DNA of 64,000 nucleotides from Candidatus Nitrospira allomarina (GTDB taxonomy: Bacteria > Nitrospirota > Nitrospiria > Nitrospirales > UBA8639). Under the pieces are notes generated by a model. The model saw nothing but the letters and a program-made list of their open reading frames with translations, had not been told where the DNA came from and did no database searches. The DNA lies in contig NZ_CP116967.1 in assembly GCF_032050975.1 (NCBI RefSeq), positions 1,485,001 through 1,549,000 of the forward strand, written 5' to 3'. Of the stretch, positions 41,796 through 52,395 are shown piece after piece. A program made the translations under genes and the position numbers. Each line of letters opens with the position of its first letter. The first letter of the stretch is position 1.

Positions 41796-43100
41796 TTAAC
41801 CCAAAAGGCTGGAAAAAAGCGTGGCCAGTCCCAAAAAACTAAAAAACCCTGCCACATCGGTTACAGTGGTTAAGATGATTGATGATGATTGAGCCGGATC
41901 TTGTTTCAGAGATCGAAGAATGATGGGAATGATTGCCCCGGAAAACCCCGCCATGACCATGGAGATGACCATGGAGACGCCGATGACCATGGTTAAGCCC
42001 CATGATCCGCTCCAGAAAAATACGGCCGTACAGGTCGTCGCGGCCACTGCTACTCCATTGGCCAAGGCGACATAGGATTCTTTCAAGGTCACGCGGAGCC
42101 ATTGGGAGGGACGGATATCCCGCAACGCTAATCCACGCATGACTACCGCGAGCGCTTGAGCCCCTGTATTCCCCGATTGCCCGGCCACGACAGGGAGCAA
42201 AACGGCCAAAGCCGTAAATCTGGCAATGGTGTCCTCAAATAACCCCACCACAAACGCTGCCAAAAAGGCTGTGAGCAAATTGATTTGCAGCCAGGGGAGA
42301 CGTTTTCGAATGGCGAATCCCGGCGGCGACAGGGCTCGTTCGTCCTTGCTGGCACCCACCATGGTTTGCATGCTAATGGTGGCCTCTTCTTTTTCAACCT
42401 GAATGATGTCTTGACTGCTAATGATTCCGAGGAGGCGGCCGTCCAAATCGGTGACCGGAATAGTCAGCACCTTCCATTCGTTGCAAATTTCTACGACTTG
42501 TTCCTGATTTTCGAGGGGATGAATGGTCGGTAATTCTCGTTTCATCAATACCGCCAGGCTCTTCTTTGGAGAGGCTAAAAAAAGATCCCTGAGGGATAGG
42601 ACGCCCACGAGGACCTGGCGGCGATCAATAATGTAGATTTCATTGAGATGCTGGGTGTCATGGGTGCGAACCTGTCGGATGGCTTCCTCGACGGTCAGGT
42701 CTTCCGGGAGCGCAAAGAAGTTGACATCCATGAGTATGCCGACCGAATCCTCCGAATACTCCATAAATGGTCCAATGTCGGCTGAGACGTGCAGGGGTAG
42801 GGCATCCAAAATGGCTACACGGGTCTCATCGGGCATTCGTTGGAGAAGGGAGGCGGCCACCGCGGGTTGGAGATGAGGAAGGGCACTCAGGAGTAACGGT
42901 TGCGGAAAAATTCCGAGCAGGTCTGCGGCCAATGAGGGTGACATGACCGAGAGGACCTTTGCGACCATGGCGGGGGAAAGATCGGCAAGTATGGGGATCA
43001 CCTCCTGGGGATCATAGGATTCAAACACGTGGGCGGCTTCATCCGGAAATTTGGCAATAAAGGCCTGATGCATCTGTTCAGTCGTTGCAGGTGTCGTCAT
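41796..43100 (-). CDS. mgtE: MgtE-type magnesium transporter
   Basis: MgtE channels carry Mg2+ across the inner membrane and are gated by cytoplasmic domains that sense Mg2+. In order: N domain of helical repeats (residues about 5-130, DEAAHVFESYDPQEVIPIL), two CBS domains (about 135-260), a connecting helix, and five membrane helices (about 290-434). The pore signature PVVAGQSGNTGAQALAV and the Asp in TDVAGFFSFLGLA are present. ATG 43100 (MTTPATTEQ) overlaps the stop of the upstream gene by four bases; a longer open frame to 43205 is rejected. Length is 434 residues. Confidence 0.92.
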   Translation of the reverse strand: MTTPATTEQMHQAFIAKFPDEAAHVFESYDPQEVIPILADLSPAMVAKVLSVMSPSLAADLLGIFPQPLLLSALPHLQPAVAASLLQRMPDETRVAILDALPLHVSADIGPFMEYSEDSVGILMDVNFFALPEDLTVEEAIRQVRTHDTQHLNEIYIIDRRQVLVGVLSLRDLFLASPKKSLAVLMKRELPTIHPLENQEQVVEICNEWKVLTIPVTDLDGRLLGIISSQDIIQVEKEEATISMQTMVGASKDERALSPPGFAIRKRLPWLQINLLTAFLAAFVVGLFEDTIARFTALAVLLPVVAGQSGNTGAQALAVVMRGLALRDIRPSQWLRVTLKESYVALANGVAVAATTCTAVFFWSGSWGLTMVIGVSMVISMVMAGFSGAIIPIILRSLKQDPAQSSSIILTTVTDVAGFFSFLGLATLFSSLLG

Positions 43101-43960
43101 GGTGTTTCCTGTTCTTTCCGGGGAGAGGTGGGGGGTGTCGATGTGCCAAGGGATTCTCCCAGGGCGGTCATCAAGCCAATTCCTGAGAGAGAATACGCTT
43201 CCCACAGTTGCAGGAGGGCGTCGGAGAGAAATGCCGGTTGATACTCGCCGGAACGTGACTGAAGAAATTGCCTCAGTGTTCGATGGCGAAGCGCGCCAAT
43301 AAACGTACGGTCTTGATCAATGACCGGAAGGCTGTCGTATTGAGCCCATGCGGGGTGGGCAACAATGTCGAGGGCATTGGCCGAGGCCGGGATCGCTTTC
43401 ACGTCCTGCCGCATGATGGAGGACACGGTGATCGTCGGTTCGGCTCCAAGCAGCTCTTTCATGAGGATGACTCCGCGCAGGATCGTCTGATGATCAATGA
43501 TGTATAAATAATAGATGGCTTGCCCGACGGTTTGGGTCACTCGCTGTAAGGCCTTCCCGACGGTGATGTCCGGGGGAAGCGTCAGGACATGCGGATCGGC
43601 GAGGCTGCCGGCAGTATGGTCCGGCAAATTGATTGATCGCCGAAGATGTGCACCGATGGCCGGGTCAACCTGATCCAGGAGAGAGGTTTGTGTTGAAGAA
43701 TCATACTGTCGGAGGACTGCCCGTGCCGAACGGGAGGATAACCGGCTGAGTATGATCGCGCTGGTTGCCGGTGGATACTGTTTTAGAATTTCGGCCGTTG
43801 GGCCGGGAAGACAATATTCCAGAAAGGCGGCGATATGTTGGGGTTCCATGGTCTGCAACATTTCTCCCGCCGACTGAGCCGGAAGTTCCTCCACGTAGCG
43901 TGCGGCCTCTAAAGGATGTTCCTGGATAAAGGTTTCCCGAAGCTGTTGGGTCAAATTCAT
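43097..43960 (-). CDS. MgtE N-domain/CBS-pair protein lacking a membrane domain
   Basis: This 287-residue protein aligns in architecture with the cytoplasmic half of MgtE: an N domain (LEAARYVEELPAQSAGEMLQ at about 17-36) then two CBS motifs (about 128-235, with SIMRQDVKAIPASANALDIV). No hydrophobic helix follows; the tail is short and polar. It is translationally coupled to the full-length mgtE (ATGA overlap). A regulatory subunit that pairs with MgtE or senses Mg2+ or nucleotide is inferred; it could also be a degenerate duplicate. Confidence 0.85.
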   Translation of the reverse strand: MNLTQQLRETFIQEHPLEAARYVEELPAQSAGEMLQTMEPQHIAAFLEYCLPGPTAEILKQYPPATSAIILSRLSSRSARAVLRQYDSSTQTSLLDQVDPAIGAHLRRSINLPDHTAGSLADPHVLTLPPDITVGKALQRVTQTVGQAIYYLYIIDHQTILRGVILMKELLGAEPTITVSSIMRQDVKAIPASANALDIVAHPAWAQYDSLPVIDQDRTFIGALRHRTLRQFLQSRSGEYQPAFLSDALLQLWEAYSLSGIGLMTALGESLGTSTPPTSPRKEQETP

Positions 43961-43964
43961 CGGC

Positions 43965-44798
43965 TTATCCCTCCGTTGGAGAAAGAATGCTGGTGACTTC
44001 AGTAAATTGCGCGGCAGGAATCACGACCCGTCCTTTCGCCGTATCCAGAACAACGACCATGGGAGTTATGGCTGTGACGGTGCCATTGTAGGCGCCAACC
44101 TGAATCTTTTCCCCGATTCGGACAATGGGCTGAATGTAGTGGGCGGCAATCAGATTCTTCACGGCTGAACGGGAACCGATTCCGAAGGATAAGGCGGCTC
44201 CGGCAATGAGTCCGGCAATCAGAATGACAATGATCTGATTAAGCAGCGACGTGTCAATTCCCAACTCATTGATAGCCGTCACCAGCACAAGCAAAGTAGC
44301 GGCTATATAGACCGTTTGCGCAATGATGGTGCCTTGCCGGATTCCGGAAGAATCACACGCAACAGAGATCAGGTCGCGTACAAAGTTTGTGGCCAGGAGG
44401 CCTAGAACGAGAATAAGGGTAGCCATGCCGATTTTGGGCAGATAGTGGACCAGTCCGGTTAACGTTTCGGACAAAAGGGCGAGACTTAAGGCTTCGGTGG
44501 CGGAAATCAGAAAGAGGAGAAAAACCAGCCAAAACCCTAGAAGGCCGACAATTTGTGAAATTGTTTTTTGGCTGCCTATTTTTTTCAGCAGCGTGAGAAC
44601 ACCGGTGCCGCCCAGTAAACGATCGACGCCGATCATATGCAACACGCGGCTCGTTCCCGCTTCAACGATTTTTCCCAAGAGGATTCCCAGACCTAACAAC
44701 ATCAAAGCCCCTAGGCTTTTGGGGAGATAGGCCATAAACAGCTTGAAACTGTACTCAAACGATTCCTCAAGGGTTGCGGTCCAAAGGGTGATATCCAT
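43965..44798 (-). CDS. Small-conductance mechanosensitive channel-like membrane protein
   Basis: The 277 residues contain about five hydrophobic helices, with the TM-helix repeat and pore-like GLIAGAALSFGIGSRSAVKNL, then a beta-rich MscS-type end (IRVGEKIQVGAYNGTVTAITP-like pattern around residues 225-260). It lacks the long C-terminal domain of MscS. It probably releases solutes or ions on hypo-osmotic shock. It lies four bases before the MgtE-N/CBS gene and is one of three related channels in this 12-kb block; AAGGAGG precedes the ATG. Confidence 0.82.
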   Translation of the reverse strand: MDITLWTATLEESFEYSFKLFMAYLPKSLGALMLLGLGILLGKIVEAGTSRVLHMIGVDRLLGGTGVLTLLKKIGSQKTISQIVGLLGFWLVFLLFLISATEALSLALLSETLTGLVHYLPKIGMATLILVLGLLATNFVRDLISVACDSSGIRQGTIIAQTVYIAATLLVLVTAINELGIDTSLLNQIIVILIAGLIAGAALSFGIGSRSAVKNLIAAHYIQPIVRIGEKIQVGAYNGTVTAITPMVVVLDTAKGRVVIPAAQFTEVTSILSPTEG

Positions 44799-45022: not shown

Positions 45023-45502
45023 TTAATTGAGAGGCAGATGAGAAGGTTCTGTGTCCTCAGATGGCTCTCCCGATGCGGGGACCTGGTTCAACGGGGAGTC
45101 CGGAAGAGGTTCGGGTTCGATCGAAGATTGTGAGGGTTGGGCCGGTTTTTCGGGGACCTGCCGTGTGAGTTTGTTGACTTTAATGACCGGTGGGTCAGTC
45201 ACAAATGGTTCGTATTGTTTGACGTCCAACGTGACTGAGTCCTGTTCTTCCACAAGCAGGTCAATCTCTGGAACCTGTTTCCGAAAGGTCGCCAGGATGG
45301 TGCCATTTGGCGTGGTGACAGTCATTAACAATCGGTCCTGCTGGCGTTCCTTATGTGTGACGGTCCCCGTCAGGGGATGGACGGTTTCTTGAAGGAATTG
45401 GGGTATATAGGGCTGGGCATATCGGGCGGCAAGAAATGGTGCTCCTAAACCCAATCCTACTCCTAAGACAAACACCGCCATGTAGACCATCAAGGATTTC
45501 AT
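45023..45502 (-). CDS. Membrane-anchored protein of unknown function
   Basis: From ATG 45502 (GGAGA about 10 bases upstream) the 159-residue protein begins with one hydrophobic helix (MKSLMVYMAVFVLGVGLGLG) and continues as a soluble domain with strands (TGTVTHKERQQDRLLMTVTT) and a Pro/Ser/Glu-rich tail. An earlier in-frame ATG at 45562 adds 20 polar residues. I recognise no family. Location suggests a role with the channels. Confidence 0.65.
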   Translation of the reverse strand: MKSLMVYMAVFVLGVGLGLGAPFLAARYAQPYIPQFLQETVHPLTGTVTHKERQQDRLLMTVTTPNGTILATFRKQVPEIDLLVEEQDSVTLDVKQYEPFVTDPPVIKVNKLTRQVPEKPAQPSQSSIEPEPLPDSPLNQVPASGEPSEDTEPSHLPLN

Positions 45503-45925
45503 GTAGATTTTCTCCGGTATTTCAGTGGAACGTTCCAGCTTTTCCTGTTCAAAGGAAGACAATATCCACGCGGCAGCGAATGAAAGATTGGAAGCATACG
45601 AGACCGTCCCCCCAGATCTCCTGCGTCCTTCGGGCCCTGCTCATTTTTTTCTCTCAAGTCTTTCGTATATTTCTGGAGATTCTGAATGCCGCCCGTTTGG
45701 AGAAAAGCCAGGATTCTGATTAATCATACACAATGACCATCACAAAGATAACAACTAACATGCCGGTCTTCTTTAAAAGCCTTTGCCGGTTCCCCTCAGA
45801 TTTTAGAAAAAACCAGGACTTACTTTGTTAGGAACCGTTCTTCATTTTTTAGGATCGTTGAAGCTGGGACCGGTTCTTTCCCTCCGCAACGTCATGCTTC
45901 AATGTCATGAATTCCATAGCCAGAG
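45503..45925 (-). other. 423-base intergenic region
   Basis: I see no gene. A 12-base perfect palindrome TGGAACGTTCCA (45526-45537) lies 24 bases before the downstream start codon; palindromes of this size are expected by chance in a window this long. Confidence 0.35.
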
Positions 45926-46066: not shown

Positions 46067-46388
46067 GGGTGTTGTGCCTCCTGGGCATCATGAGAAGATT
46101 GTCATATTTCGAGTCTGATGCAGATGAGTCTTATCTTCTCCCTTCTCAACGCTCTGGCCCAGGACCCTGTAACTCCCCCTGCGGAGCGCCGGTGTTGAGC
46201 CGCATCGGAAAAGTTGGCTTAACACTGGCTTTAATCCTTCTTGTAGAAGGACTCCAGAGGGACAGGATAGAAATGCCCTCTTCAAAAGAAGGGCAGTAGG
46301 GAGGAGACTCTTTGTCGACTGGCTCTGATTTCAGGTGTTTGGAAAATCAAACCAACCTCCAAATTTTCCAGATCTGTCAGTTTGAGCC
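46067..46388 (-). other. 322-base intergenic region with terminator
   Basis: No gene was recognised. It contains a likely intrinsic terminator (46271-46291) for the minus-strand genes that end with the BON remnant. Confidence 0.45.
46271..46291 (-). terminator. Probable intrinsic terminator
   Basis: On the minus strand GCCCTTC and GAAGAGGGC form a stem with a TTTT loop (one bulged base), followed by an ATTTCT tail. It lies about 100 bases past the BON-domain remnant. Confidence 0.5.
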
Positions 46389-46610
46389 TCACTTAACGGT
46401 GATGTTATTTGTGACTAATACCACCCCAATCACATCTCGGACCAGTTCTTCGGCTTTGGTGGCTTCCGTGATGGTATCTACTAATCCATTTAAATGGACC
46501 CGTCCTTTAAAGGTCTCCACATGAATATCCATGCCACTGACCGCAGAATCACCCAAAAGCGCCGTTTTGACTCATTGATCTATTTTCGTAATAGCTCGTC
46601 ATAAGATTGC
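46389..46610 (-). pseudogene. BON-domain protein remnant with internal stop
   Basis: The minus-strand frame ending at TGA 46389 gives VKTALLGDSAVSGMDIHVET, a BON-domain start, continuing to a VTNNITVK end. In frame just before it stands TGA (46572-46574), preceded by AITKIDQ, the beginning expected of a BON domain (AITxKIxxALL). The single stop thus cuts the domain. No start codon with ribosome site is seen after the stop until an internal ATG. BON domains bind phospholipid and occur in osmotically induced proteins such as OsmY. Confidence 0.6.
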
Positions 46611-46615
46611 TCTGC

Positions 46616-46822
46616 TTAACGGTCACGGCCAGCAGGGGCAAACACTCCCGCCAGGATGGCGATGCCGATCAGCATAAGGATCAAACCGACAATCCATGCA
46701 AGAAGGGCAGGGTTGACGATGACCAACCACCCAAGGATGATCAGTAACGCTGCCAGGACGATGGACGCCACATGCCCCAGGCCTTGGGTCATGGCTGACA
46801 ATGCGGACAAGAGGTTATTCAC
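46616..46822 (-). CDS. Small two-helix membrane protein
   Basis: A 68-residue protein from GTG 46822, chosen because AAGGAG (on the minus strand, about seven bases upstream) fits it; TTG 46843 is also open. Two hydrophobic helices (about 16-34 and 38-60: VASIVLAALLIILGWLVIVN, then LLAWIVGLILMLIGIAILAG) end in a short Arg-rich tail. No known family. It follows the AmaP-like gene by 24 bases in the same direction. Confidence 0.62.
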   Translation of the reverse strand: MNNLLSALSAMTQGLGHVASIVLAALLIILGWLVIVNPALLAWIVGLILMLIGIAILAGVFAPAGRDR

Positions 46823-46846
46823 CTGATTCACTCCTTCTTGCAATCC

Positions 46847-47431
46847 TTAGCGAACCCGGGATTGCACTTTTCTCATATTCTTCTTTAACGGTTCCATTTG
46901 GGTTTGAATGTGTATCCCAATCACATTTTTTCCTAAATAGCGTTCGACGACTTCCTTTGCACGTCCTTGTACTTGAGGCCCCAGCACATCGGCGCTTGCC
47001 TGCGGGGTCACAGTTAGGCGGCAATGGAGATGAATGCCATCTGATCCTTCCTTGACTTTGGTCGAACTTTCCAAGATTCCTTCGATCTTTCCCGCTTCCC
47101 GATTGACCAGGTCTTGAATGCTCGCCCGGGAGGCGGTGATGTGTCCCAGATTGTCCTTTTTCACTGTCACTGCCGATTTTTTGCTGGAATGTGGGATGAA
47201 CTCTACGAACAACAGGCAGAGGCCCAAACACAGCAGCCCAAGGCATACGCCCACTACACTCCACCAATTTGTTCCCTCTAATTGCGTCAATGGGATGAAG
47301 ACCTGATGCCATGGGGATGGCATCATCTGTTCAGGGTCCCACATGCCCAACATTATCATCAGAATGGCGCTGCATCCCGACCCTAAAAGAAGGATGCCAA
47401 GGATCACCAAGAATCGGTTGAAAATATTCAT
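46847..47431 (-). CDS. AmaP-like alkaline-shock membrane anchor protein
   Basis: The 194-residue protein from ATG 47431 has two N-terminal hydrophobic helices (MNIFNRFLVILGILLL... and the WWSVVGVCLGLLCLGLCLLF region) followed by an Asp23-like soluble domain with ITASRASIQDLVNREAGK and LTVTPQASADVLG. In staphylococci AmaP ties Asp23 to the membrane. An open frame to 47569 overlaps the previous gene and is not used. It lies five bases from the neighbouring Asp23-type gene, as in Gram-positive amaP-asp23 operons. Confidence 0.78.
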   Translation of the reverse strand: MNIFNRFLVILGILLLGSGCSAILMIMLGMWDPEQMMPSPWHQVFIPLTQLEGTNWWSVVGVCLGLLCLGLCLLFVEFIPHSSKKSAVTVKKDNLGHITASRASIQDLVNREAGKIEGILESSTKVKEGSDGIHLHCRLTVTPQASADVLGPQVQGRAKEVVERYLGKNVIGIHIQTQMEPLKKNMRKVQSRVR

Positions 47432-47435
47432 AGAC

Positions 47436-47771
47436 TTATTCGGTGAGGTGGACATCGCCAATTCGAATATTGATCCATCCCACCGCTTCTGGAATGAGTG
47501 ATTGAATCTTGTCACGCACCATGCCGCGCACGCGAGTCGAGAGTGCCGGTATGGAACTATCCTTATCAATAGTCACCGCAAGTTCAATGGAAAGATTCAG
47601 CGTTCCTTCTTCTCGATGAACCGCAATGCCCCATACCCGCCATCCTGGCCCTACAGTGGAGAGGTTGGCTTTGGGACCGGTAAGGAGAGCGACTCCTGGA
47701 ATGCGAGATACACTCATGGTCACCGCATCCATAATTAGTTGTTCATCAAGTGGTGCAATGGATTGGGTCAT
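47436..47771 (-). CDS. Asp23/Gls24-like protein, short paralogue
   Basis: The 111-residue protein has the Asp23-family core: TMSVSRIPGVALLTGP, then LSIELAVTIDKDSSIPAL and a C-terminal IGWINIRIGDVHLT-like end. Asp23 proteins form membrane-associated scaffolds under envelope stress. It is the most divergent of three soluble paralogues in a row and is probably co-transcribed with them and with the AmaP-like gene. Confidence 0.78.
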   Translation of the reverse strand: MTQSIAPLDEQLIMDAVTMSVSRIPGVALLTGPKANLSTVGPGWRVWGIAVHREEGTLNLSIELAVTIDKDSSIPALSTRVRGMVRDKIQSLIPEAVGWINIRIGDVHLTE

Positions 47772-47788
47772 GTGAACTCCCGTTTCGT

Positions 47789-48220
47789 TTATTCGACCCT
47801 GCGAGCCACGGCCTCGGCCGGCTTATCTTCGGGGTAGAAAAGCCCACTGACTTGGATGTTAACTTCTTTCACCATGAGACCAAGAAGTCGTTCAATGCGT
47901 TCTATAATGGCTTGACGGAGATTGCTAGCTAGATCGGGGACCTGTACTCCGTAATCCGCAATGATGCGCAAGTCAATGGCCACTTCGCGTTCCCCGACTT
48001 CAACCATTATCCCTTGTCCCGATGGGCCTTTTCCCGTTAATCGCTGGGTCAAGCCTGCAATCTGTTCACCCATACCTTGTTTCGCGATTTCATGGATGCC
48101 CTGGACTTCCTTGGCCGCTATTTCTACGAGTTGGGCCACGACCTCATCGGAAATAGTGGTTTTCCCTAATTGAGGCACTCGTTGGCCTGGATTGTTTGTA
48201 GTCGTGATGCCTTCAGTCAT
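47789..48220 (-). CDS. Asp23/Gls24-family envelope stress protein
   Basis: The 143-residue protein shows the family pattern clearly: TTISDEVVAQLVEIAAKEVQ, then a GIHEIAKQG stretch, VEVGEREVAIDLRIIADYGV, and VKEVNIQVSGLFY. The start ATG 48220 has an AGGAGA site (on the minus strand). It is closely similar to the gene at 48325 and arose by duplication. Such proteins are common in Firmicutes and Actinobacteria but rare in diderms. Confidence 0.9.
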   Translation of the reverse strand: MTEGITTTNNPGQRVPQLGKTTISDEVVAQLVEIAAKEVQGIHEIAKQGMGEQIAGLTQRLTGKGPSGQGIMVEVGEREVAIDLRIIADYGVQVPDLASNLRQAIIERIERLLGLMVKEVNIQVSGLFYPEDKPAEAVARRVE

Positions 48221-48324
48221 TAGGCAGTTCTCCTCATCAAGATAAATAGCAGGAATCTATCCGGTTACTGTGTGCTTTAAGGGTAAGCGATGGATGGGCA
48301 TGGCCTTTATGCCCCACGTCGATG

Positions 48325-48765
48325 TTATGCGACGCGTGGCTCCGGTCGTTCGGCAGGCTTGTCTTTGGCTTCTTCGGCGAAATACAGACCGGTGACGTCA
48401 ATATTCACTTCTTTAACCGTGAGGCCTGTCATGGTGTTCACGCGCGTGGCTAGATTTCGTCTAATGGCCGTGGTGAGCTGGGGAATGCTCACGCCATACT
48501 CCACGACGATCTTAATATCGACGGCCACTTCTCGTTCTCCTACCTCAACGTTTACGCCTTGGGTGCTCTGTCCTAATTTTGATGCTCGTTGGGCTATACC
48601 CGTTAGCGCATCACCCAAGCCCAATGATCCCATTTCATGGACCCCGGCTATTTCCCTGGTGGCGAGCGCGACAATTTTGGCCACCACTTCATTTGAGATA
48701 GTGGTTTTCCCATCTTTAGTGACTAATTCTGAATTTCCTCGTTGAGCGTCTTTGGGGTCTGCCAT
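48325..48765 (-). CDS. Asp23/Gls24-family envelope stress protein
   Basis: A 146-residue paralogue of the previous gene: TTISNEVVAKIVALATREIA, GVHEMGSLGLGDALTGIAQR, VEVGEREVAVDIKIVVEYGV and VKEVNIDVTGLYFAEE. A strong GGTGGAGGT site stands before ATG 48765. It is the first of the Asp23-type genes on the minus strand, after a 558-base gap, so the operon promoter is probably just upstream. Confidence 0.91.
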   Translation of the reverse strand: MADPKDAQRGNSELVTKDGKTTISNEVVAKIVALATREIAGVHEMGSLGLGDALTGIAQRASKLGQSTQGVNVEVGEREVAVDIKIVVEYGVSIPQLTTAIRRNLATRVNTMTGLTVKEVNIDVTGLYFAEEAKDKPAERPEPRVA

Positions 48766-49323
48766 GGTGTACCTCCACCTTTTATAAGTTATAAATTGAT
48801 GATGAGAAAGCCTGTGATTTTGAGAAAAAGGTAATCAGATCTTTTTCGTTTTGTTGGATCTTATTGGCAATTCTCTTTCATTGGTCCTCGTTCTTTCACC
48901 CATTTAGACAACTCAGAGTGGGAAATGGTCACATAATTATTTGTTCAATAAAAACCGTGGGTTAAAGTCATTTTTGGAAAATCCTCGAAGAATGATGCCT
49001 TGTTCGAGTTGAGGAGGTACAAATGTGGCCAACGAGGGCATATCACACATGTCTGTGAAACAACATACTGGGGATTGAGAGATTAAGTTTGCGGTACCGT
49101 GATTTCTGCCGGGATATCCCACAGGGAAAGGAGGGCGAGGAACATACGCTCAAATTAAATCTTCGGGGATTTCCAAGGAAATGGTAGTTTTACGCGACGG
49201 GAATATGACTGCCGAAACCGATCACGCGGTGAGTGGATATTGGTGGGAAGGAGGGGTGCCCTTGTCCATGAAGTCTCAGTCTACTAATTATCGTAAGAAC
49301 ACTATCTAGGGGGTTCGCCTCTC
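48766..49323 (-). other. 558-base intergenic region upstream of the Asp23 operon
   Basis: No gene was recognised; one frame (48937-49122 minus) lacks family features. AT-rich sequence at 48781-48795 on the minus strand (TAACTTATAAAA) could include a -10 element for the Asp23 genes. An AAAGGAGG at about 49121-49128 on the plus strand precedes no credible gene. Confidence 0.4.
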
Positions 49324-49533
49324 CTATTGAACTTCTTGAGATGTCTGTTTGTGGGTAGACGTGATCCGTCCCAGAAGGAAGCCAATGACTACGCAAATCC
49401 CGATTAAGACAATCCGACGTGCCTCAAATGTCCAGAAAAGAAAGGTTAATTCCACAGCGGCCATGTTCTGAAAAGCGATCAGCACGACAAGCGCTCCTAA
49501 TACAATGGTCACAATCGATTTCAATTTCCTCAT
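49324..49533 (-). CDS. LapA/DUF1049-family membrane protein
   Basis: From ATG 49533 (MRKLKSIVTIVLGALVVLIA) the 69-residue protein has two hydrophobic helices separated by FQNMAAVELTFLFWTFEARR, the hallmark of the LapA (DUF1049) family, which in E. coli pairs with LapB in controlling lipopolysaccharide synthesis. The open frame upstream to 49626 has no good start. Here it lies next to a channel gene rather than lapB. Confidence 0.82.
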   Translation of the reverse strand: MRKLKSIVTIVLGALVVLIAFQNMAAVELTFLFWTFEARRIVLIGICVVIGFLLGRITSTHKQTSQEVQ

Positions 49534-49631
49534 GACACAACCGTATCTAAGAGCGGGCATGTCCCCATGTGAAATACTGACTCGTTGGTTGGAGAAGACC
49601 AGTTTCCATTCAGGAATGACGAGCAATTTTT

Positions 49632-50489
49632 TTATCTCATGCCGGATCTCCGACTATAGGACCCTTCCTCAATGATTCGTTCATTCGGAATGTATAACTG
49701 TTCTTCATCATCCGTTTTTATGAGAACGGACACAGGAGTAAGTTTGATAATGGTTCCTTTGTGACCGGCCAGCGACACTGTTTCTCCGACATGAAAGAGT
49801 TGGGCGATGTAATACCGAGCAAGAACATTCGAAATAATGGACCGACTTCCCAGGCCAATTGATAGTGCCATGGCCAACACAATGCCAGTAATAATAATGG
49901 TGATATTGGCGCTGAAGATCGTCATATCCAATCCCAATTCGGTCAGGGCCATGACGATGCCGAAACCGACAATCAGAATTTCCAACACTGAACTCAAGGC
50001 TCCTGCATAGGCAACGTTCAGGCTTGAGGATGCCGAGACGATCCCTTCTTTGATGACTTTGGCAAGATATAACGCAATGATCAGAATTAAAAAGGCCCCC
50101 AGGACGTGGGGAAGGTAGGCAATTAAGGTATTCAGGGTGTTGAGGACGACAGTGAATCCCAGGATCTCAGAGGCCGAAATTAGCACAATGAGGAGGATCA
50201 TGTAATAGATTAAGCCTCCAATGATTTGATCGAGGCTGCTGGTAATTCCGATTCTGGCCAGCATGTCATGGAGTTTGATTTTCTGGCTGAGTTCCACAAC
50301 GCCACAGACCCGCAATACTTTTGTGGTGAGCCCTCTTAATATTTTTGCTCCTAGCCAACCAATCACCAGGATGATGATGGCTCCAAGCACTTGGGGTAAA
50401 TATCCACCTATTTTTCCCAGGAATTGTTGAAAAAAAACCAGGACAACCCTTCCCCATTCCATGAGTTCATTTTGCGTCCCTACCATCAT
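49632..50489 (-). CDS. Mechanosensitive-channel-like membrane protein
   Basis: The 285-residue paralogue of the channel at 43965 has four to five helices, ALSIGLGSRSIISNVLARYY at the pore-like site, and the beta domain VGETVSLAGHKGTIIKLTPV. A coupled start is likely with the small gene at 50502, 12 bases away. Role: osmotic pressure release or an ion-conducting membrane scaffold. Confidence 0.82.
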   Translation of the reverse strand: MMVGTQNELMEWGRVVLVFFQQFLGKIGGYLPQVLGAIIILVIGWLGAKILRGLTTKVLRVCGVVELSQKIKLHDMLARIGITSSLDQIIGGLIYYMILLIVLISASEILGFTVVLNTLNTLIAYLPHVLGAFLILIIALYLAKVIKEGIVSASSSLNVAYAGALSSVLEILIVGFGIVMALTELGLDMTIFSANITIIITGIVLAMALSIGLGSRSIISNVLARYYIAQLFHVGETVSLAGHKGTIIKLTPVSVLIKTDDEEQLYIPNERIIEEGSYSRRSGMR

Positions 50490-50501
50490 ACGGCTCCCCT
50501 C

Positions 50502-50684
50502 TCATTCACTCATTGAATCGTCAAGTAACGTTCCAGGGATCGATGCGTGAAATGCGCCGATCTCTTTTGCCACGCTAAGGAAATACACGGCCTTCATGAC
50601 TTGCTCCTTAGTGTTTTGATCAGGTTCCGGTATCTGTAAGGCATCCAGCACCTGTTCAAAGACCAGATCTTCCTCGTCATTCAT
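50502..50684 (-). CDS. Small acidic protein coupled to the ECF sigma gene
   Basis: A 60-residue protein from ATG 50684 (MNDEEDLVFEQVLDALQIPE), overlapping the sigma factor stop by four bases. It has no membrane helix and no zinc-binding HxxxCxxC, so it is unlike usual anti-sigma factors, but its genomic place is that of one. Function unknown; an unusual regulator of the sigma factor is possible. Confidence 0.6.
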   Translation of the reverse strand: MNDEEDLVFEQVLDALQIPEPDQNTKEQVMKAVYFLSVAKEIGAFHASIPGTLLDDSMSE

Positions 50685-51205
50685 GTGTTGACCTCCTCTC
50701 GGAGTTTTGTGATCAATCGTGACACCCGCATTTTGGCTGCGCTGAGACTGATTTCGCAAATGGCAGAAATTTCTTCATAGGTATACTCACCCATGAATTT
50801 CATGGCCAGGATGGTCCGGTCTTCCAGTGGGAGTTTTTGAAGGAGATGATGCACATCGATTTTCGAGGTTGGGTCCTCGTGAATGAGTGTCTCAGACGGA
50901 TGTTGCATTCCTGACGACTCAGAATAAGCCTTTGATTTGATATAGTTAAGGCAGTGGTTGGTAGACAGGCGATACAACCAGGAGGAAAATGCAGCCTGCT
51001 TCTTGAAATCATGGAGATGTAGAAATACCTTTATCCAGATTTCCTGCATTAAATCACGCGCTTCTTCCTGATTGACACAGATGAAGAAACACCGTTTTAA
51101 GACTTTGCCGGCATAACGATCATACAAACCTTCAAAGGCTTGAATGTCGCCTTGCGTGATGGCATCGACCAGATCATTGTCCGTAGAGTTTTCGTAAGGC
51201 GCCAT
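50681..51205 (-). CDS. ECF-family RNA polymerase sigma factor
   Basis: The 174-residue protein has sigma region 2 (GLYDRYAGKVLKRCFFICVN, then EEARDLMQEIWIKVFLHLHD and FSSWLYRLSTNHCLNYIKSK) and region 4 (LEDRTILAMKFMGEYTYEEI with helix-turn-helix ISLSAAKMRVSRLITKLRE). ATG 51205 is used; a TTG 15 bases earlier is open. It is upstream of the channel, LapA and Asp23 genes on the same strand, so it may direct their stress-induced transcription. No target promoter motif could be proven by eye. Confidence 0.92.
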   Translation of the reverse strand: MAPYENSTDNDLVDAITQGDIQAFEGLYDRYAGKVLKRCFFICVNQEEARDLMQEIWIKVFLHLHDFKKQAAFSSWLYRLSTNHCLNYIKSKAYSESSGMQHPSETLIHEDPTSKIDVHHLLQKLPLEDRTILAMKFMGEYTYEEISAICEISLSAAKMRVSRLITKLREEVNT

Positions 51206-51513
51206 GGAACGAATGGGCAAGTTACTATAAGAGTAATTGCGTCATGTGATTGCGTGACTCGGTTTTCCGCTGAGAGAGGACATGAAAAAGTGGCAGTGTA
51301 CCAATGCCGCCAAACCTTCTCAAACATCCTTAGATAGGATGTGTAGACAAGCGTCAGGCGCAATGGCCAATAAGAATGCATTGGCGTTTGGCCAATGGTC
51401 CATGAAGCAATGAACCTCATATCTGATTTGTAGGAATAATATCGCGGGGCCCCAAAAGCCGTTTTCCCTCAATCAGGCGATTAAGGCACTCGTCTGGAAA
51501 AGTCGCGGAACTT
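51206..51513 (-). other. 308-base region upstream of the sigma factor gene
   Basis: No gene was recognised. GCCAAT boxes occur at 51366-51371, in inverted form at 51380-51385 (ATTGGC) and again at 51391-51396, about 160-190 bases before the sigma factor ATG. Confidence 0.4.
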
Positions 51514-52395
51514 TCAGGCTTCGGTCGTTGAGATTGGAAGAGGTAAAGGGGTTCTGACATGAAGGTCCCTTTGAGGAAAAGGGATTTCCACACCATTCTT
51601 CCGAAATTTCTTAACGATGGCGCAATTAATATCGGATTGAATCTGCCTTCTGCCTTGTGGATCTTCCACCCAGGCTAATAAACGCATATTCCAGGCAGAA
51701 TCTCCGAAACTCATCAGCCAGGCCTTCGGTTCCGGGTGGGGTAACACCCTTGGGTTTTCTTTAGCCGCTTCCAAAAGGGAATGTATCACCTTGTCTAAAT
51801 CTGAATTGTAAGAGACTCCCACTTCAATCTCCAATCGGGTTTTGGGGTCACCGTGCGACCAGTTGACCACCGTGGAAGAGATAAATTCGGAATTGGGAAC
51901 GACGATAGCCACGTTGTTTAGAGAACGAATGGTTGTGGATCGAATGTTGATTTCTGCCACATCTCCCTCGGTGTCTCCCACGGTGATGCGGTCCCCAATT
52001 TGAATATGTTGTTCGAACAGCAACATGAGTCCCGCGATGAAATTGGACGTCAGATTTTGCAGGCCGAATCCGATTCCGACGGAGAGAAATCCAAAAATGA
52101 CGACAAGACCGCTCAGGTCGACACCGATGACTTGAAAGGCAATCACGGTCCCAACGAGGAGCAATAAATATTGAATAATGCGGGTTAAGGTGTATTGTGT
52201 TGCCTTGGGCATCTTCGAGCGTTTGAGTAATTGGTTGCTGAGAAAACGTCGTATCAGGGCGTTGATGATCATAAAACCACCCATGATGAAGGCAAAAAAT
52301 GCCAGAGACGAGAGGGTAATCGGGGTCTGGTTGACGGTAAATAAGGGGTAGGTAAAAAAGTGATCCAATGCGTTCAGGACCGTTGAAAGATCCAT
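51514..52395 (-). CDS. MscS-family mechanosensitive channel
   Basis: This is the most canonical of the three channels: 293 residues with three N-terminal helices (about 10-100), the TM3-type GLVVIFGFLSVGIGFGLQNL pore stretch, NFIAGLMLLFEQHIQIGDRI, the beta domain ending TTIRSLNNVAIVVPNSEFIS, and a C-terminal alpha/beta domain (about 180-285). It opens on membrane tension and releases ions. ATG has an AAGGAGAA site upstream on the minus strand. Confidence 0.94.
   Translation of the reverse strand: MDLSTVLNALDHFFTYPLFTVNQTPITLSSLAFFAFIMGGFMIINALIRRFLSNQLLKRSKMPKATQYTLTRIIQYLLLLVGTVIAFQVIGVDLSGLVVIFGFLSVGIGFGLQNLTSNFIAGLMLLFEQHIQIGDRITVGDTEGDVAEINIRSTTIRSLNNVAIVVPNSEFISSTVVNWSHGDPKTRLEIEVGVSYNSDLDKVIHSLLEAAKENPRVLPHPEPKAWLMSFGDSAWNMRLLAWVEDPQGRRQIQSDINCAIVKKFRKNGVEIPFPQRDLHVRTPLPLPISTTEA

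Follow-up and report, generated by a model that had tools for sequence, protein, structure and literature searches.

What controls an Asp23-AmaP scaffold in a bacterium that carries an outer membrane? The question is raised by a block of minus-strand genes in the window, the 64,000-nucleotide stretch of Candidatus Nitrospira allomarina analysed here (contig NZ_CP116967.1, positions 1,485,001 to 1,549,000), where an operon for Asp23-type proteins and their anchor AmaP lies downstream of a gene for an extracytoplasmic function (ECF) sigma factor. In Firmicutes, the Asp23 scaffold is under SigB-type stress control. The host of the window, a single-contig genome of 4.55 Mb, is a lipopolysaccharide (LPS)-bearing diderm, because it encodes LptD above cut-off (64.8 bits). 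Our analysis makes it likely, if by no means certain, that the block belongs to a membrane-stress regulon in which a sigma cassette drives the Asp23-AmaP scaffold operon as one of several outputs. Control of the Asp23 block by the sigma factor is, as a prediction from sequence, well supported.

The sigma cassette and a candidate promoter before asp23a

The features that carry the argument are, from upstream to downstream:

50681..51205, minus strand: ECF sigma factor, 174 amino acids (PF04542 50.5 bits, PF08281 42.5 bits)
50502..50684, minus strand: helical, soluble protein of 60 amino acids, placed like CfrX and a putative anti-sigma partner (found in 13 of 48 family genomes)
49632..50489, minus strand: CmpX-like membrane protein (PF05552 70.3 bits, two helices; PF00924 30.0 bits, incomplete MscS beta-domain)
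48904..48933, minus strand: predicted ECF-type promoter of the asp23 operon, TGTGAC-N18-GTCTAA, 168 bp ahead of the asp23a start codon (core shared by 7 of 7 genomes)
48325..48765, minus strand: asp23a (PF03780, 101.5 bits)
47789..48220, minus strand: asp23b (PF03780, 91.9 bits)
47436..47771, minus strand: asp23c, a divergent Asp23 (PF03780, 24.8 bits, under the cut-off of 28)
46847..47431, minus strand: amaP, the Asp23 membrane anchor (NF033218, 73.9 bits against a cut-off of 55, for the longer open reading frame 46847-47569)
46616..46843, minus strand: 75-amino-acid hydrophobic membrane protein, the final intact gene of the operon (3-bp gap after amaP)

The block was compared across 245 Nitrospirota genomes, 48 genomes of the host's family and control genomes including Thermus, Deinobacterium and Thermotoga. 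Loci of relatives were mapped by tblastn, and matches were read against curated cut-offs (PF03780, 28 bits; NF033218, 55; PF06305, 28; SigX NF007222, 194; TIGR02937, 42.9). The ECF sigma gene named by an earlier note on this DNA, made from the letters alone, holds up, since both of its Pfam domains lie above their cut-offs; with TIGR02937 it reaches 79.6 bits. Among the 48 family genomes, the ECF profile gives E<1e-30 in exactly the 13 that hold the 60-amino-acid gene, and the ECF, 60-amino-acid and CmpX-like genes are adjacent in this order at all 13 loci. In the family sample the three genes form an inseparable trio. The start codon of the 60-amino-acid gene overlaps the ECF stop codon (ATGA), and the CmpX-like gene begins 12 bp further on.

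The small protein is 59-100% identical across the 13 genomes (62-93% to that of the window over 60 columns, alignment A2), and its AlphaFold model shows three helices with a mean predicted local distance difference test score of 80. A search of the 245 Nitrospirota genomes gave 4 strong matches, all inside the family; the next best match (G195, E 0.003) sits in an unrelated place and was set aside. The gene that the earlier note had described as MscS-like does encode a partial MscS beta-domain, but its product has PF05552 helices and gives no Pfam match to the MscS C-terminal domain, and a plain MscS was rejected in favour of a CmpX-like protein. No match to it was found on plasmids.

The presence of Asp23 follows that of the trio. 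Asp23 was found in 8 of the 48 family genomes, all 8 of them among the 13 trio genomes (hypergeometric 3e-6, uncorrected for shared ancestry, which these co-occurrence counts ignore, in a sample that holds many incomplete metagenome-assembled genomes, MAGs), and 5 of the 13 trio genomes have no Asp23. In a quality subset of the family (completeness of 90% or more, contamination of 5% or less; n = 33), Asp23 was present in 2 genomes and the 60-amino-acid gene in 6. The linkage claimed by the earlier note is kept in relatives: wherever trio and Asp23 share one contig, that is in 5 of 5 genomes (G000, G262, G242, G272 and G255), both are also on one strand, with 0.4 to 7 kb between them. Three further genomes with the two modules on different contigs (G274, G275 and G256) were excluded from this count. 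The block is thus a conserved gene order among relatives and not a product of chance.

When the regions upstream of asp23a were compared side by side, one conserved island stood out between diverged flanks. It holds TGTGAC-N18-GTC at 7 of 7 testable loci, 119-174 bp ahead of the asp23a start codon, and the last hexamer is GTCTAA in 6 of them and GTCCAA in L050; the eighth locus, L049, was left out since its contig ends inside asp23a. In the window, the distance from the promoter core to the asp23a start (48766-48903, about 138 nt) is long for such an operon, and it is similar in 6 of the 7 genomes.

TGTGAC-N16..20-GTCTAA was searched for in the 48 family genomes. Of its 31 matches at spacing 18, the trio genomes account for 26, none of the 13 being without a site, and the 35 remaining genomes for 5, whereas spacings 16, 17, 19 and 20 summed to 16 matches, 7 in trio genomes and 9 in others. 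The neighbouring spacings would lead one to expect 1.3 spacing-18 matches in the trio genomes, against the 26 found. On the trio's own contig, 18 of these 26 sites lie within 10 kb. A 20-base pattern allowing zero mismatches gave 9 matches, all in trio genomes. The sites are oriented as well: 20 of 25 have a same-strand gene start no more than 620 bp away, a figure that falls to 8 of 25 when they are read in reverse. A score matrix built from the sites gave high scores away from the trio locus in three trio genomes (G255 C1, G256 C410 and G269 C181) and low scores for four of the five sites in non-trio genomes (G187, G133, G253 and G267). In the window's genome the exact spacing-18 core occurs once, before asp23a, and a matrix scan of the 64-kb window gave no second site. 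The earlier note had proposed a search for one motif shared by the regions upstream of 48765, 49533 and 51205; it is present at 48765 only, with none at the LapA or ECF genes. Its suggestion that the ECF factor controls the Asp23 block gains from both lines of evidence, the promoter being conserved in all 7 testable genomes and Asp23 being confined to trio genomes (8 of 8). The sigma-promoter link is predicted because of this promoter conservation together with the co-occurrence with the trio.

In relatives the same motif stands before other genes. Multi-helix channel proteins of family PF05552 follow it on the same strand in L040, L042 and L048, and in L042 it precedes a second CmpX-like gene and then MgtE genes. 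It is also followed by genes for a YtxH protein (L120), for CNNM (L046), for a response regulator and then LapA (L039, L040) and for an EipA-like protein at 21.5 bits, under the cut-off of 30.8 (L044), and by the ECF gene itself (L047). In L123 and L125 a BON-domain gene comes second or third behind it. A 317-amino-acid protein follows the motif in L044, and the same kind is found further down in L046 and L048. Proteins of this kind (317-318 amino acids; L044 4024-4977 and L048 12866-13819) match no Pfam family above cut-off and give weak matches only, with phasin-like and membrane-fusogenic models among them. A neighbour in L044, suspected by eye to be CorA-like, proved to be a polyphosphate kinase fragment.

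Two loci preserve what appears to be the trace of a loss. The motif is found just after cmpX, followed by a decayed asp23a copy and then by the response regulator, at L040 (11189-11613) and L039 (8271-8695); at both, the predicted promoter has outlived its gene. The genome of L040, G273, holds no other Asp23, and it has probably lost the operon, since the broken copy is its only Asp23 trace. The position of the broken copies behind the site that follows cmpX suggests that asp23 directly behind the trio is the older arrangement.

The Asp23 operon and its surroundings

The minus-strand block runs, from upstream to downstream, MscS, ECF sigma, the 60-amino-acid gene, the CmpX-like gene, LapA, 558 bp, and the Asp23 operon, in which asp23a, asp23b, asp23c, amaP and the 75-amino-acid gene are separated by 104, 17, 4 and 3 bp. 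A check of coordinates placed every gene named in the earlier note on the minus strand where it had been put; the 60-amino-acid gene (50502-50684) and a BON-domain remnant (46389-46571) had been overlooked. Of the three Asp23-type proteins that it counted, two are clear at 101.5 and 91.9 bits, and the third is divergent and falls under the cut-off of 28. The AmaP-like anchor was identified correctly (73.9 bits against 55), as was the LapA-like gene (34.6 against 28). The 75-amino-acid protein, which matches no Pfam family above cut-off, is kept behind amaP in relatives and in a Chloroflexota locus, L063.

The arrangement had also been called unusual in a diderm. In this regard, the host does carry LptD and PF03780 was found in only 2 of the 245 Nitrospirota genomes, both in the host's family, but the same search also matches the Thermus, Deinobacterium and Thermotoga controls. 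A 2020 paper (PMC6954212) terms the Asp23 family exclusively Gram-positive; this is too strong, because these controls carry it. The same operon is found in the Nitrospiraceae bacterium isolate UBA8639 and in other Nitrospirota/Nitrospirales MAGs. Outside the phylum, the best identities in a pattern-limited scan were to a Chloroflexota MAG (55%) and an Actinomycetota MAG (50%), which suggests a donor in one of these two phyla as far as such a scan can indicate it. L063 has Asp23 (55%), an Asp23c-like protein, AmaP (38%) and the 75-amino-acid membrane protein (56%) in the same order, and the operon is therefore an old unit that has perhaps moved between phyla. Unlike the window, L063 has no such ECF within 10 kb and no motif on the strand scanned; around Asp23 in 12 non-Nitrospirota loci, no ECF of this kind was found except for two weak matches. 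In the partial view of the literature that our search gave, no paper on an Asp23 operon under an ECF factor in a diderm was found, and nothing relevant on Asp23 or alkaline shock in Nitrospira.

The remaining features in and around the block are:

51514..52395, minus strand: MscS-type channel with all three domains (PF00924/PF21082/PF21088, above cut-offs), one gene above the ECF gene
51295..51323, minus strand: sigma-70-like hexamers TTGAGA-N17-TACACT, 118 bp upstream of the ECF gene (pattern scan)
49324..49533, minus strand: LapA-domain small membrane protein (PF06305, 34.6 bits, cut-off 28)
46389..46571, minus strand: BON-domain remnant, N-terminus missing (PF04972, 51.7 bits)
46274..46295, minus strand: terminator-like hairpin at the operon end (scan: 11 found against 6.3 expected in the region)

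The full MscS gene adjoins the ECF gene in three relatives and lies elsewhere in others. The sigma-70-like pattern recurs in L039 and L040 and is absent from L038, and it is weak, since the scan gave 9 in total against 8.2 by chance. The BON remnant has an equivalent behind the same operon in L039 (202-399), and in G255 and G256 the promoter motif lies ahead of genes for BON-domain proteins. Further downstream in the window (41796-44798), a second CmpX-like gene, a gene for a soluble MgtE_N-CBS protein that has no transporter domain, and a full MgtE gene overlap or abut, and they stay joined in G262, G272, G242, G255 and G269; the soluble MgtE may act as a regulator of either channel or transporter. 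Between this group and the operon, a 179-amino-acid protein (45023-45562) with one probable membrane helix and no Pfam family is kept at the locus in G262, G272 and G275.

Likeness to known systems and rival explanations

The closest known parallel is the SigX-CfrX-CmpX system of Pseudomonas aeruginosa. According to PMC8999054, SigX (ECF102) is the sole studied ECF factor under a mechanosensing complex, with CfrX as a putative soluble anti-sigma factor and CmpX as a channel; SigX is further described as answering membrane stiffening and driving cfrX-cmpX (PMC7641640). Both systems co-encode an ECF factor, a small soluble putative anti-sigma protein and a CmpX-type MscS homologue, with envelope-stress targets, and a CmpX-type gene, recognized by the Pfam domains PF05552 and PF00924, stands beside the sigma gene at 13 of 13 loci. 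They differ in that the sigma gene comes first here, in that the small protein has 60 amino acids against the 84 of CfrX, to which it is likened by position and kind, in that the sigma gene has MscS, LapA and Asp23 around it in the window and no OprF gene beside it, and in that the output includes the Asp23 operon. Among NCBIfam models the top match of the ECF factor is SigX NF007222, with SigW second at 90.3 bits. We make no claim that it belongs to the SigX group, because its score of 92.8 bits lies under the cut-off of 194 and barely above SigW, OprF is absent nearby, and 12 of 13 genomes have no motif ahead of the sigma gene. We propose only tentatively, and with somewhat less than even confidence, that Pseudomonas is not the sole host of a membrane-tension switch like SigX-CfrX-CmpX, that such a switch also occurs as a compact, portable cassette whose outputs can be exchanged, and that in some LPS-bearing Nitrospirales it is wired to a cytoplasmic Asp23-AmaP scaffold.

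Several observations weigh against a sigma-driven regulon of this kind. The 60-amino-acid protein belongs to no family, a fold search in the PDB gave no match, and its putative anti-sigma role is drawn from its position. The motif precedes the sigma gene in 1 of 13 genomes only (G137, L047), and the sigma gene is for this reason predicted not to regulate itself; whereas Pseudomonas SigX drives cfrX-cmpX, no sigma promoter lies before the small gene here. Some of the sites in trio genomes are poor: those at G262 C124, G274 C176 and G275 C498 (L121, L122 and L126) are inside genes or low-scoring and look like chance or coding matches, and that at G242 C27 is poor by its letters. Conversely, G270, a 90% complete MAG that has no trio, carries a convincing site that scores 37.5; the gene behind it resembles the YtxH gene of G269. 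Scores of the matrix are not independent of the sites on which it was trained. Against the analogy with Pseudomonas, overexpression of cmpX left sigX and cfrX expression unchanged in P. aeruginosa (PMC10965496), and the sensor role of CmpX is hence unproven even there.

Other explanations of the locus have to be weighed against the same evidence. The motif could be the operator of another transcription factor, found with the trio merely through a shared neighbourhood: by eye, TGTGAC and GTCTAA form a partial dyad with GAC/GTC half sites, and the sigma gene has no motif before it in 12 of the 13 genomes. We consider this unlikely, as GTGAC-N18-GTC has the geometry of ECF promoters, for which the type is GGAAC-N18-GTC, as one orientation dominates (20/25 against 8/25), and as strong sites beyond the trio locus again fall in trio genomes (G255 C1, G256 C410, G269 C181). 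The trio and the operon might also be independent envelope-stress passengers of one variable island, since relatives differ in the genes that they carry between CmpX and the MgtE block and near-complete relatives such as G259 and G271 have neither module; however, the promoter tracks the sigma factor even though the cargo genes behind it are not homologous, and asp23 retains it even 6-7 kb away (G272, G255), which leaves such a coincidence decidedly improbable.

A third alternative would turn the circuit around, with the Asp23 proteins serving as soluble anti-sigma factors of the ECF factor and the operon as its regulator, not its output. Actinobacterial ECF286 and ECF292 adjoin Asp23-family proteins that are predicted anti-sigma factors (PMC8999054), so that an ECF gene near Asp23 is common to both cases, and Asp23 is never found without this ECF in the family sample. 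Here, however, it is the 60-amino-acid gene that is coupled to the ECF stop codon and occupies the place that Asp23 has in those groups, and three genes lie between the ECF gene and asp23; asp23 has its own predicted promoter and an AmaP anchor, and the 5 of 13 trio genomes that have no Asp23 keep the ECF gene, the 60-amino-acid gene and the channel together. We regard this reading as very unlikely, and Asp23 may nonetheless have a feedback role on the sigma factor.

Proposed circuit and its meaning

The findings presented above lead us to a model in which the Asp23 operon is an output of the sigma cassette. The trio would be made at a basal level, perhaps from the weak sigma-70-like site at 51295-51323. 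By analogy with Pseudomonas SigX-CfrX-CmpX, from which both steps are inferred, the sigma factor is probably kept inactive by the 60-amino-acid protein until the CmpX-like protein, as the probable sensor of membrane tension or fluidity, sets it free. The free sigma factor would then read TGTGAC-N18-GTCTAA before the asp23a-asp23b-asp23c-amaP operon with its terminal membrane-protein gene, and AmaP would tether the Asp23 proteins as a scaffold beneath the inner membrane. This last step is modelled on Staphylococcus aureus, where an Asp23-family protein and its AmaP anchor are likewise encoded in one operon (PMC6954212), whereas here there are two to three Asp23 paralogues, an LPS-bearing host and an ECF-type promoter. 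In relatives, the same sigma factor would drive other envelope genes, the Asp23 operon being one of several exchangeable outputs.

If the model is true, a diderm gains a sensor-to-scaffold circuit for its inner membrane, and an Asp23 operon stands under a predicted dedicated sigma factor in an LPS-bearing lineage. As the operon is the sole strong predicted target in the window's genome, the question of the signal could be reduced to a single-promoter reporter. For the mechanosensing type of ECF factor, the locus would add a possible second lineage, together with a predicted promoter.

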